Virus record (IMG/VR): IMGVR_UViG_3300024346_000494
Span: 1-24,403 of that record
Length of the DNA: 24,403 nt
Reading direction: 5' to 3' (one strand)
Origin: a virus
The notes below the pieces were generated by a model. It saw only the letters and a program-made list of their open reading frames with translations. It had not been told where the DNA came from and ran no database searches. Shown one piece after another: positions 3,525-8,239 of this stretch (position 1 is its first letter; each line of letters opens with the position of its first letter). The position numbers and the translations under genes are program-made.

Positions 3525-4063
3525 TACACAAACTTTTCTAGTGCAGCAACTTGCTTTTCACTAAATACTGAACCATACTTAGACATGATTGCATCAAGTC
3601 CATTTTTGCGTTTGTCTTTAGACATGCCCTTCAAGTACTCAATAGCCTTACTGAAAGCATCGTCCTCTGATGGAGCGGGTCTAGATGTTTGACTAGGCAC
3701 AGAATCTTGCTTTTTAATTGCCATATCAACCTCATCTGCCGTAGCAATTGATGTCTCAACTCCGATACCCAAGAATCCTAATGCCCGGCCAACTGCTGAT
3801 GTTTCGCAGTTTTCTACATAAGATGTTTGATTGATTCGGCTAGAAGATTTGTCTTCTTGTGCCATTCCTTGAGACACAACAACACCTTCAGCGTTTCGGA
3901 TAGTGCATCGCACTACACAAGACTCGGTATCCAAGTGCAACAACTCGTTCTCAATTGAGAATCCTTTATACTCTGATAGACTGCGCAAAGCAATCACTCG
4001 CTGATTGACCTCAACATACTCTTTACCCTTGATGTTGGTGGTCTTAAACTGATAGTTAGACAT
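3524..4063 (-). CDS. Single-strand annealing / recombination protein
   Basis: 179 aa. The stretch YVENCETSAVGRALGFLGIG at 83-101 is a signature seen in phage proteins paired with recombination exonucleases: an ETSA-[VI]-GRAL helix ending in glycines. It is preceded by a beta-rich core (residues 15-70) with an [A/S]-QE-D/K turn. A low-complexity linker rich in S, P and D (115-140) leads to a helical C-terminal segment. It would bind single-stranded DNA and anneal it to a partner strand, working on tails made by the adjacent exonuclease. Assignment to the Rad52/ERF-like group is inference from the motif and gene pairing. Confidence 0.65.
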   Translation of the reverse strand: MSNYQFKTTNIKGKEYVEVNQRVIALRSLSEYKGFSIENELLHLDTESCVVRCTIRNAEGVVVSQGMAQEDKSSSRINQTSYVENCETSAVGRALGFLGIGVETSIATADEVDMAIKKQDSVPSQTSRPAPSEDDAFSKAIEYLKGMSKDKRKNGLDAIMSKYGSVFSEKQVAALEKFV

Positions 4064-5721: not shown

Positions 5722-6591
5722 TTACTCGCCCAAGAAGGCCTCAACCTTCCCCAATGTGTTCTTGATGATTTCAATGGCGCTCCCCATGTTGCGGAAATGC
5801 TCAGCGTTGGGCATCAACACCACCTCATCGCAGTTCGTGTGCTTTTGGAAGACATCCTTGCTGATTTTCAAGTCATCCCAAGACTCTACTGACCTGCCAT
5901 ATCCACCACTTACGCGGTTGGCCTTGCCTCCCATATCGCCCTTTCCGTTCTCAAGTATTCCGAATACTAGTCTGCGGAAGAAGGATGGATGGGTTACTGC
6001 GCCTAGTCTGCGGAAGTCTAGGTCTTCGTGGTAGTCCTTCAAGGTTAGCATTTGGATGGTGTTGCTACCATCCTCCAAGGATGCAAGATTGAACCAACAT
6101 GCCGTGATGCGGACATCGCATTTGTCTTGAATCATCTCAGCAACCTTGGCTACTGCTGAACCTTGGTGCAACCAATTCTCTGCATCAACCATGCAGTTAC
6201 CATTTGGTACAATCATTAGGTTGACCAAGGGTCTACGTACCTCGTTCACCTCGTTGAACCAATGCTTCAGTTCTCCCATGATTACGGATGCCGTATCAAA
6301 GATGTCACCATTGTAGTCCATTTGGATGTTTGTGTCCTCCGAATTGAATGCATCGGATAGGTCATCAAAGGACTCAGCAATTGCTTGAGCATTGTAGCCT
6401 TTGGTCTCTAGGGCAAGAGCGTTATCAAAGGACTCAGCAAATTCGCCATCACCATGGAAAGACCCGCTCCGCTCACTATGGCTAGAGGAATCACGCTTGG
6501 CGTTGTCTTTGGTGGCTTGGAAGAATCCTTCAAAGTCTGCTTGGAGCAAGTACGTCTTGTTCTTGCCCATCTTGGAAATAGTGTAAGACAT
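5722..6591 (-). CDS. VWA-like / DUF7192-type partner of the AAA+ ATPase
   Basis: 289 aa from the first ATG at 6589-6591. The N-terminal third is polar with a helix-rich segment (FHGDGEFAESFDNALAL). The middle has RRPLVNLMIVPNGNCMVDAENWLHQGSAVAKVAEMI (in part), that is a hydrophobic strand, a loop, then a helix after a G-S/A element, followed by a second strand VRITACWFNL. This resembles VWA-type domains that pair with MoxR/CbbQ ATPases in phages and operons, although a clean D-x-S-x-S metal site is not visible. The gene follows the ATPase, separated only by a hammerhead ribozyme. Cleavage there would leave a 26-nt leader on this message. Confidence 0.55.
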   Translation of the reverse strand: MSYTISKMGKNKTYLLQADFEGFFQATKDNAKRDSSSHSERSGSFHGDGEFAESFDNALALETKGYNAQAIAESFDDLSDAFNSEDTNIQMDYNGDIFDTASVIMGELKHWFNEVNEVRRPLVNLMIVPNGNCMVDAENWLHQGSAVAKVAEMIQDKCDVRITACWFNLASLEDGSNTIQMLTLKDYHEDLDFRRLGAVTHPSFFRRLVFGILENGKGDMGGKANRVSGGYGRSVESWDDLKISKDVFQKHTNCDEVVLMPNAEHFRNMGSAIEIIKNTLGKVEAFLGE

Positions 6592-6611: not shown

Positions 6612-6665
6612 GACATGGACATCCCCGAAGGGATGTTTCGGCTATTAAAGCCTCGTCAGCATGTC
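6612..6665 (-). ncRNA. Hammerhead ribozyme HHR1 (type I)
   Basis: Read on the minus strand. Stem I GACATG (6665-6660) pairs with CATGTC (6617-6612). Core CTGACGA is at 6659-6653. Stem II GGCT/AGCC (6652-6649 with 6643-6640) has loop TTAAT. GAA is at 6639-6637. Stem III ACATCCC/GGGATGT (6636-6630 with 6625-6619) is closed by a TTCG tetraloop. C at 6618 is the cleavage nucleotide, so cutting falls between 6618 and 6617. Every conserved core base of the hammerhead is present, including the A15.1-U16.1 pair. It starts three bases after the ATPase stop codon and ends 21 bases before the next ATG. Confidence 0.9.
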
Positions 6666-6668
6666 TGC

Positions 6669-7868
6669 TTAGATGGTTACACCATCCTTGAGTGACTTGA
6701 TTTGGTCATTGGCAAGACCTTCAAAGATGGTCATGCTCAAGGCCTCATCAATCGTGAACCCTGCCTCTACAAGGTCGTTGGCATCAATAGACTGCCGTGG
6801 TGAGATTACCAAGTTCATGGCGAAACGCTTAGCGTTAGCGCGGATGTCCTGCACAATCTGCGTGACCTTCGTGTCACCTGCGATTTGGCGCTCCAAGACC
6901 AAGTCGTAGTTCCAAGAGATTTTCACCCATCGGTTAAGCAAGGCGGCATCTTGGCGGTTACGGCCTCCGTACTCCTTGGATGCTCCGTACCCGAAGGTGT
7001 TCATACAAGCAATGACCTTGAAGTCATCGTGCTTTTTGACCATCCCATTGGGGAACAAGTACTCGTCTCCGCTGAGCATGTTGTTCAGCGCAAGGATGAC
7101 GTTGGGGTTGGCTGCATCCATCTCATCAAGGATGAGGACACCACCATTCTCAAAGGCATCACGAGTCGGGGTAGAAACATACTCGCCCATTGCCGTAGTC
7201 ATCCCGATTAGGTCAAACTTGGAAGTCTGATTTGAGAAAGACTGAATGTAATAGTCTAGACTCAAAGCCTTGGCGCACTGAACTGCTCCGTAGGTCTTGC
7301 CCGAACCTGCCTCACCGACTAGCATGACATTCTTACCGATGCCTACGGCACGGACTAGTTTGTCAAAGTTCTCATGCTGACCATCTACCTTCTTGGTAGA
7401 CTTACCGTACTTGATTTCCAAGGTGCGTATTTCACGACCCTCCATCATTCCCTGCACGATTTCCTTCACTCGCCCCTCATCCAAGGATGGCTTGATGAAT
7501 GGCGCAATGGCATCAATGATTGCCGACTCAAGTCCGTTAGACTTGGGGGTTGGCGCAGGAGCCTCCTCTACTTTAGGGGCCTCACCGCGACTAGAGCGGG
7601 TGATTATGTAGTACCCTTCTCCGGTAGCCTCAAACAATGCTCCGCACTCAAAACGTCCGGTCAAAGTTCCGCCTAGACGGCTGACTTTTTCGTAGACTTG
7701 GTTGGCGGATAGTTTGCCGACTCCATCGGCAGACTTGAGGCCTGCCATTACTGCAACATCTTGAAGGTTGTCGTTTTGCCATTGGCCATCGGGGGTGGTG
7801 ATGCGCCAATTTTGGGGGCTGATGCGACCATTTATAAGTTCGCCTTTCATGTAAGTTACCTTGCTCAT
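6669..7868 (-). CDS. MoxR/CbbQ-type AAA+ ATPase
   Basis: 399 aa from ATG 7866-7868 (MSKVTYMKGE). A longer frame to 7928 exists but would run through ribozyme HHR2. Residues 1-95 form a separate N-terminal domain, followed by a linker rich in A, P and E (about 98-110). The AAA+ module carries Walker A GEAGSGKT at 185-192, Walker B GGVLILDEMDAAN at about 242-254, a sensor-1 segment IACMNTFGYG near 287-294, and an arginine-containing NRQDAALLNRW at about 304-314. MoxR-type ATPases remodel protein complexes together with a VWA-domain partner, here the next gene. In phages their target is unknown. The gene is bracketed by two hammerhead ribozymes. Confidence 0.85.
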   Translation of the reverse strand: MSKVTYMKGELINGRISPQNWRITTPDGQWQNDNLQDVAVMAGLKSADGVGKLSANQVYEKVSRLGGTLTGRFECGALFEATGEGYYIITRSSRGEAPKVEEAPAPTPKSNGLESAIIDAIAPFIKPSLDEGRVKEIVQGMMEGREIRTLEIKYGKSTKKVDGQHENFDKLVRAVGIGKNVMLVGEAGSGKTYGAVQCAKALSLDYYIQSFSNQTSKFDLIGMTTAMGEYVSTPTRDAFENGGVLILDEMDAANPNVILALNNMLSGDEYLFPNGMVKKHDDFKVIACMNTFGYGASKEYGGRNRQDAALLNRWVKISWNYDLVLERQIAGDTKVTQIVQDIRANAKRFAMNLVISPRQSIDANDLVEAGFTIDEALSMTIFEGLANDQIKSLKDGVTI

Positions 7869-7917: not shown

Positions 7918-7971
7918 GACATAGACATCCCCTAAGGAATGTTTCGGATAGTGAACCCTCATCAGTATGTC
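7918..7971 (-). ncRNA. Hammerhead ribozyme HHR2 (type I)
   Basis: On the minus strand: stem I GACATA (7971-7966) with TATGTC (7923-7918); core CTGATGA (7965-7959); stem II GGGT/ATCC (7958-7955 with 7949-7946), loop TCACT; GAA at 7945-7943; stem III ACATTCC/GGGATGT (7942-7936 with 7931-7925), loop TTAG; cleavage C at 7924. Compared with HHR1 the stems carry paired changes: the stem I closing pair G-C becomes A-U, and a stem III C-G becomes U-G. Pairing is therefore kept while the sequence drifts. The TGA stop codon of the 80-aa gene (7964-7962) lies inside the CUGAUGA core. Confidence 0.92.
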
Positions 7972-8204
7972 TGAAAGAAGCCTAGGCCTTTCACGAAGCC
8001 TACATAGTCTAGTGCTTCATCTTGTGTCATGCCTAGACTCCAATCCATTCGGTGAAGGAATGAATCCCCATTGAATGCTTGTACCTCTTGGAATTCTAGA
8101 CCATCACGAAAGAAGGTATTGATGATTACCTTGTAAGTTCCGAACTTGTAAGTGATTTGGTTGCCTTTGTTCATGTTTTCTAGGGTTTTAAGTATGTTTC
8201 GCAT
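7962..8204 (-). CDS. Hypothetical protein, 80 aa, between two ribozymes
   Basis: The frame starts at ATG 8202-8204 (MRNILKTLENMNKG) or at an internal ATG at 8172-8174. The later start would keep coding DNA clear of ribozyme HHR3, whose stem II contains the first ATG. The product has a beta-rich half (NQITYKFGTYKVIINTFF) and a helical end (TQDEALDYVGFVKGLGFF). No family recognised. It is the first gene of the cluster with the AAA+ ATPase and VWA-like protein, and its stop codon is nested in HHR2. Only a few dozen bases of untranslated RNA would remain on the message after both ribozymes cut. Confidence 0.65.
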   Translation of the reverse strand: MRNILKTLENMNKGNQITYKFGTYKVIINTFFRDGLEFQEVQAFNGDSFLHRMDWSLGMTQDEALDYVGFVKGLGFFQTY

Positions 8205-8239
8205 TTGCTCATCAGTACGGCTTTGGCCGTAGACATACT
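8191..8239 (-). ncRNA. Hammerhead ribozyme HHR3 (type III)
   Basis: On the minus strand: stem III 5' arm AGTATGT (8239-8233); cleavage C at 8232; stem I TACGGC/GCCGTA (8231-8226 with 8221-8216), loop CAAA; core CTGATGA (8215-8209); short stem II GC/GC around AAAT (8208-8201); GAA (8200-8198); stem III 3' arm ACATACT (8197-8191). All core positions fit. Here stem III is the open stem, so the permutation is type III, unlike HHR1 and HHR2. The ATG at 8204-8202 is inside stem II. Stem II of two (at most three) base pairs is short and may reduce activity. Confidence 0.85.

Follow-up and report, generated by a model that had tools for sequence, protein, structure and literature searches.

A phage type I hammerhead that holds the stop codon of the upstream reading frame in its core, an instance of a wider pattern at phage gene ends

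The stop codon of an 80-codon open reading frame (ORF) lies within the catalytic core of a type I hammerhead ribozyme, here called HHR2, in the window, by which we mean the whole 24,403 bases of an IMG/VR virus record that were analyzed. Small type I hammerheads such as HHR2 are widespread at phage gene ends, and HHR2 illustrates this general pattern clearly and is not an isolated switch. It probably serves to separate messages, the stop staying on the 5' side of the cut, with the stop in the core as a recurrent end-point of ORF creep into the ribozyme. The features discussed below all lie on the minus strand:

8191 to 8239, minus strand: HHR1, type III hammerhead at the head of the putative leftward operon, predicted cut between 8232 and 8231 (Rfam, motif finder, fold z -2.57)
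7962 to 8204, minus strand: 80-codon ORF with stop TGA 7964-7962 (ORF list)
7918 to 7971, minus strand: HHR2, type I hammerhead whose core holds the stop of the upstream ORF (covariance model R1, motif finder, fold)
7959 to 7965, minus strand: CTGATGA core of HHR2 (sequence reading)
7923 to 7924, minus strand: predicted HHR2 cut, between these two bases, 38 nt past the stop (hammerhead geometry)
6669 to 7868, minus strand: AAA ATPase gene, ORF opening at 7928, stop TAA 6671-6669 (phrog_249, E 2.8e-50; AAA_5, E 1.7e-14)
6612 to 6665, minus strand: HHR3, type I hammerhead, predicted cut between 6618 and 6617 (covariance model R1, Rfam, fold)
5722 to 6591, minus strand: DUF7192 gene, likely start ATG 6591, 26 nt past the predicted HHR3 cut (DUF7192, E 2.7e-21; phrog_1909)

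In triplets of the upstream frame, the minus strand reads CAG ACA TAC TGA TGA, then GGG TTC ACT ATC CGA AAC ATT CCT TAG, then GGG ATG TC/T ATG TC, with the slash at the predicted cut. The preliminary description of this DNA had placed the stop inside the catalytic core, and this is borne out: TGA 7964-7962 is the first UGA of the core CUGAUGA 7965-7959, U4-G5-A6 in hammerhead numbering, and a second UGA (7961-7959) follows directly and in frame. That the last two sense codons form stem I, as was also claimed, holds broadly but is off by one base at each end. The 5' strand of stem I, GACATA 7971-7966, which pairs with TATGTC 7923-7918, takes in the final G of CAG, the whole ACA codon and the TA of TAC, whose C is already the first letter of the core. 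The register of the stop is not in itself improbable, because any ORF that enters the core in one of the three frames must end at this first UGA.

HHR2 has the core CUGAUGA 7965-7959, GAAA 7945-7942 and a cleavage triplet GUC ending at 7924, in accordance with the UH rule, and stems of 6, 4 and 6 bp with stem I open, as expected of type I. It is matched end to end by R1 (58.6 bits, E 8.7e-15), a covariance model built from 48 hammerheads of other phage contigs, with the studied DNA left out. With this E value, and with 0 motif matches in reversed sequences, the match is not due to chance. Pair counts were left out of the evidence, since the rows had been chosen for pairing and such counts are circular. 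The predicted fold of the isolated 54-nt HHR2 is exactly a type I hammerhead, at an unremarkable energy (-13.7 kcal/mol, z -1.07; 31/200 shuffles as good). An Rfam scan of the whole 24,403-nt stretch up to E 1 found no hammerhead, and a scan of a short stretch brought up RAGATH-1-hammerhead (RF03152) for HHR2 at 24.8 bits (E 0.065), below the gathering score of 56.3.

Three hammerheads, HHR1 of type III and HHR2 and HHR3 of type I, flank genes of one co-directional run, and judging by their placement they would separate the first genes of one putative operon. HHR1 is found by Rfam Hammerhead_3 (RF00008) at 35.7 bits (E 4.3e-6 in a 501-nt search), short of the gathering score of 48.5. As the first ATG of the 80-codon ORF (8204) lies inside HHR1 stem II and starts after type III cuts are mostly 50-75 nt away in our survey, ATG 8174, 57 nt after the predicted HHR1 cut, is the likelier start and gives a protein of 70 aa. 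The 80-aa protein has no PHROG and no Pfam family above cut-off; in viral_contigs it is encoded solely by a near-identical contig, and in phages it has one insignificant match (E 0.3). The likely start of the ATPase gene, ATG 7868, is 55 nt past the predicted HHR2 cut, and by eye the leader in between contains a possible 7-bp hairpin (GAGACTA with TAGTCTC, minus-strand 7908-7884). The preliminary description did not contain HHR3, which lies between the ATPase and DUF7192 genes. R1 finds it at 60.8 bits (E 1.9e-15), with a fold z of -3.14, and RAGATH-1-hammerhead at 25.5 bits, with the gathering score of 56.3 not reached. Its stem I (GACATG/CATGTC) differs from that of HHR2 (GACATA/TATGTC) on both sides of one pair, so that pairing is kept. 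A 9-mer, CAACGCCCA, occurs just before HHR1 (8251-8243, minus strand) and again at the 3' end of HHR2 (7918-7910, minus strand). The terminase is 42-48% identical to those of listed Flavobacterium elemoviruses and of a Caudoviricetes record, a likeness that suggests a Bacteroidota host.

The position of the stop was compared with that in other phage hammerheads by running two type I patterns and one type III pattern, with the two bases before the core fixed, on viral_contigs. The motif finder demands core, cleavage triplet and stems, and returned 285 matches in the loci of this stage, whereas reversing these sequences gave 0; this and all other survey counts hold among the matches listed. Clusters join matches whose flanks agree at 65% identity across 110 nt; gene calls follow a crude ORF rule, and the stop measured was the nearest same-strand ORF stop relative to the 5' edge of the ribozyme. 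A first set, among the matches listed, comprised 134 type I, 54 type III and 6 type II clusters, and a repeat set of clusters without any old member comprised 127 type I and 3 type III.

An upstream stop within -15 to +20 nt of the 5' edge is found, among the matches listed, in 193/261 type I clusters compared with 280/5220 random positions (96/134 vs 131/2680 in the first set, 97/127 vs 149/2540 in the repeat), and 68/261 have no stop near the 5' edge; 13/134 and, in the repeat, 13/127 have none in range. Lone CTGANGA heptamers on the same strands served as a second control (n=308; repeat n=321). Stops at -15 to -1 from the core occur in 74/134 and 63/127 type I clusters among the matches listed, against 14/308 and 11/321 heptamers, and stops in the core in 8/134 and 26/127 against 5/308 and 5/321. 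When ORFs of at least 100 aa alone are counted, again among the matches listed, the contrast stays for -15 to -1 (35/134 and 38/127 vs 7/308 and 5/321), and for the core it is seen only in the repeat (9/127 vs 3/321; first set 1/134 vs 3/308). The nearest stop lies 3' of the cut in just 2 type I and 3 type III clusters among the matches listed, and the next start peaks 20-30 nt past the type I cut, with which HHR3 agrees at 26. An extreme case is a 22.5-kb contig (G001) with 14 model matches, 12 motif matches falling within 11 kb and mostly between successive genes, which has the appearance of a ribozyme-punctuated operon.

Type III hammerheads behave differently. For those ribozymes of the matches listed whose stop falls between -60 and +40 nt of the 5' edge, overlap of stop and ribozyme is seen in 129/205 of type I vs 0/27 of type III (Fisher p 3e-11), and the spacer from stop to cut in these 27 type III ribozymes is 9-54 nt long. 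All spacers of at least 22 nt (17/17 among the matches listed; e.g. L127, L152, L157) fold into a hairpin at -4 kcal/mol or better, and the hairpins beat 95% of mononucleotide shuffles in 15/17 long spacers and in 18/27 overall. In shorter spacers the hairpin can share letters with stem III. As the type III cut is near the 5' edge and the type I cut near the 3' edge, both arrangements keep the stop and some RNA on the upstream piece, and the predicted hairpins of the long type III spacers give the same order of stop, hairpin and end as in type I.

The last base of the stop relative to the core C has, in the pooled sets and among the matches listed, peaks at -6 (40), +3 (34), -7 (26), -1 (26) and +13 (14). 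The +3 peak is the register of the HHR2 stop, and the -7 and -6 peaks are UAA followed by G, and UAG, both of which use the A and G that border stem I on its outer side. These two bases are kept even where the stop lies elsewhere (A -7 0.87, G -6 0.79 in 52 ribozymes among the matches listed), and over all registers of the repeat set they stand at 0.93 and 0.90 in 108 ribozymes. A-7, A+7 and A+8 flanks and 5-nt loops II recur among type I hammerheads, in which loop II may make a tertiary contact with the stem I region. Registers are mixed in 20/35 clusters, among the matches listed, that have two or more members near a stop, some of which join unlike genes. In one pair the proteins have a common end, and the stop is at -6 in one (L071, ...VVPFIPR*) and in the core, at +3, in its relative (L062, ...VVPFIPEKAY*); L056 (-7) and L011 (-3) likewise share a protein end and differ in register.

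We infer the following course of events, including their order, cleavage in vivo, the stability of the messages and, for the 80-codon gene, creep itself. As RNA polymerase passes beyond the junction, HHR2 would fold and cut the polycistronic transcript 38 nt past the stop. The message for the 80-aa protein would keep its whole ORF and stop, with a 38-nt 3' end closed by the stem III hairpin of HHR2, and the ATPase message would begin at 7923, with a short leader just before the gene. The stop would usually sit on the conserved A-G that borders stem I, as UAA followed by G or as UAG. If this edge stop is lost, the ORF would continue inside the ribozyme, where one of the three frames leads to the core UGA. 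As the core UGA cannot mutate without killing the ribozyme, a stop in the core would be a recurrent resting state. Some findings count against this message-separating role. Among the matches listed, 68/261 type I clusters have no stop near the 5' edge, and in a few clusters the nearest stop is 3' of the cut. The predicted mean pair probability of the HHR2 stems falls from 0.71 to 0.39 once 40 nt of upstream sequence are added, and ribozymes of this kind are sparse among the relatives of the phage. L244, a syntenic terminase relative, has the ATPase and a DUF7192-like gene adjacent and no ribozyme between them, and of 80 loci with a related terminase just 4 have a motif match, including the near-identical contig of the studied phage. 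The ribozymes are therefore dispensable in this lineage.

The preliminary description had proposed that a ribosome finishing the 80-aa gene would cover or unfold the ribozyme. The footprint of a ribosome extends about 10-12 nt past the stop. With the stop so often near the 5' edge, most type I hammerheads would have stem I or the core hidden by a ribosome at termination, which makes translation-gated cleavage sterically possible. That a ribosome terminating on the core holds HHR2 unfolded, so that cleavage is prevented or slowed by translation of the upstream gene, is nonetheless rather improbable. In its favor, the stop is in the core here, most phage type I hammerheads have theirs within or close to the 5' half, inside that footprint, and ribosome occupancy of core sequences of the T4 td intron is described as leading to a splicing defect (PMC3073962). 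The overlap on which the proposal was built is real, and among the matches listed a stop near the 5' edge is indeed typical (193/261), but the in-core register is not conserved (34/261 type I clusters overall; 20/35 mixed), the stop upstream of HHR3 sits 3 nt outside stem I, and type III hammerheads are not overlapped (0/27). The comparison with relatives, for which a stop well away from the ribozyme had been named as evidence against coupling, thus goes partly against it: a stop near the 5' edge is common, but the register differs from relative to relative. Moreover, a ribosome stays on a stop codon only briefly, and native upstream sequence has no specific effect on folding. With the native 40 nt upstream, the mean stem pair probability is 0.625, vs 0.623 with swapped sequence (144/261 better, Wilcoxon p 0.37, among the matches listed), so that there is no signal of a switch. 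A stop kept 5' of the cut together with ORF creep explains these patterns, and no computational result here favors gating of cleavage by translation. The opposite coupling, in which the ribosome would aid the ribozyme by keeping upstream coding RNA from mispairing with the core, would fit the drop in stem probability in native context and the ability of UCAG 7974-7971 to pair with CUGA 7965-7962, and the ribosome has been described as a chaperone for group I introns (PMC3073962). We regard it as quite improbable: swapped upstream contexts lower HHR2 further (mean 0.23, with native at 0.39 ranking 179 of 200), so that there is no sign of a designed inhibitor, and the energy model behind the drop ignores tertiary contacts. 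A further speculative variant, likewise rather improbable, is that termination times the cutting: the ribosome that finishes a gene last would sit on letters of the type I hammerhead and free the ribozyme on leaving, with gene-by-gene cutting behind the leading ribosomes; the 5' strand of HHR1 may also compete with HHR2. Ten nucleotides of that strand (8240-8231) are complementary to the HHR2 stem I strand and core start (7972-7963, minus strand), and the minimum-energy structure predicted for the entire stretch contains this 10-bp pairing. The idea that it locks the two ribozymes thermodynamically was dropped, because HHR1 stem III is predicted to form at 0.78-0.93 in the nascent 96 nt.

Two further explanations do without the ribosome. 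Ribozymes could merely be squeezed into compact genomes, with the stop position having no functional meaning. The tight gaps on both sides and the freely varying registers speak for packing of this kind, but type III hammerheads also lie between phage genes and yet are not overlapped, and the long type III spacers have hairpins, which leaves this account unlikely, though worth keeping in mind. It is hardly probable, on the other hand, that cuts by HHR1 and HHR2 release a 308-nt RNA (8231-7924) destined for ligation into a circle or belonging to a mobile cassette. One small gene is flanked by two ribozymes, the 9-nt repeat lies beside both, and hammerhead cleavage products carry ligatable ends; against this, the two are of different types, HHR2 has one match in the record and no second copy, and a third ribozyme follows the next gene. 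Circular or spliced products were also not detected in the cases described in PMC3088659.

Among named phages, R1 finds type I hammerheads in 5/8 regions, in elemoA_7-9A, elemoB_14-3B and the Pelagibacter phages HTVC019P, HTVC131P and Jormungand. By eye, elemoA has an unannotated ORF of 21 codons that ends with TAG at register -6, and the next ATG is 28 nt past the predicted cut. Ahead of the first gene in this run stands a type III hammerhead, so that the order is as in the studied phage. An elemovirus that infects Flavobacterium sp. BAL314 (L418) carries both types. Neither the strict-core finder nor R1 found a hammerhead in Bcep176 (44.8 kb) or in HTVC115P (first 30 kb); Bcep176 is listed among variant cores in PMC3088659, and such cores would escape a strict-core search. 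A match in Streptomyces R4 was not matched by R1 and was set aside. In L244, a small gene before the syntenic ATPase gene has a stop whose last base is also the first base of a tRNA-like minihelix (3994-4035, minus strand), with an outer stem of 6 bp and a T-arm-like hairpin of 7 bp whose loop is UUCGAUU. ARAGORN reports no tRNA there, and a similar minihelix is present in L281, the sole other case among 13 sources scanned. It could be another kind of message-processing mark.

Hammerheads that flank phage genes are already known. A rule by which the upstream stop lies on or a few bases from type I hammerheads, with type III not overlapped likewise, would tie phage hammerheads to gene-by-gene message making. 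We found no statement of such a rule in the open PMC literature, which is weak evidence of absence. It would predict that 5'-OH ends lie 20-30 nt ahead of start codons, that the stop remains on the 5' side of the cut, and that a hairpin closes each newly made 3' end. The junction also offers a small natural system for ribosome-ribozyme conflict.

In mitochondrial transcripts, tRNAs serve as punctuation, structured elements that abut gene ends being processing sites; unlike hammerheads, they are cut by separate enzymes and do not cleave themselves. Retrozymes carry two hammerheads of one type in direct repeats and occur in many copies. The present pair does not fit a retrozyme-like element, with types III and I and a single copy in the record. 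Among Rfam families, RF03152 (RAGATH-1-hammerhead) is the best match of both HHR2 and HHR3 and has the same core and type I order, although with 24.8 and 25.5 bits they are not members by score; HHR1 matches RF00008 (Hammerhead_3) end to end, but has a very short stem II and stays below gathering. The closest arrangements are the prophage clusters of Perreault et al. (2011; PMC3088659), with several hammerheads of different types around single genes. Those flanking prophage genes were proposed to process long transcripts, and multi-hammerhead transcripts were cleaved in vitro, one also in E. coli. Stop codons are not mentioned in the parts of that paper drawn on here, whereas in the present phage the stop is built into the 5' half of the ribozyme. 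For this feature the nearest parallel is the "core creep" of the I-TevI ORF in the T4 td group I intron (PMC3073962), in which the end of an ORF likewise supplies nucleotides of a ribozyme core and for which a conflict between ribosome and ribozyme is documented; there the ribozyme is a self-splicing intron with the ORF inside, whereas here it is a self-cleaving ribozyme between genes.
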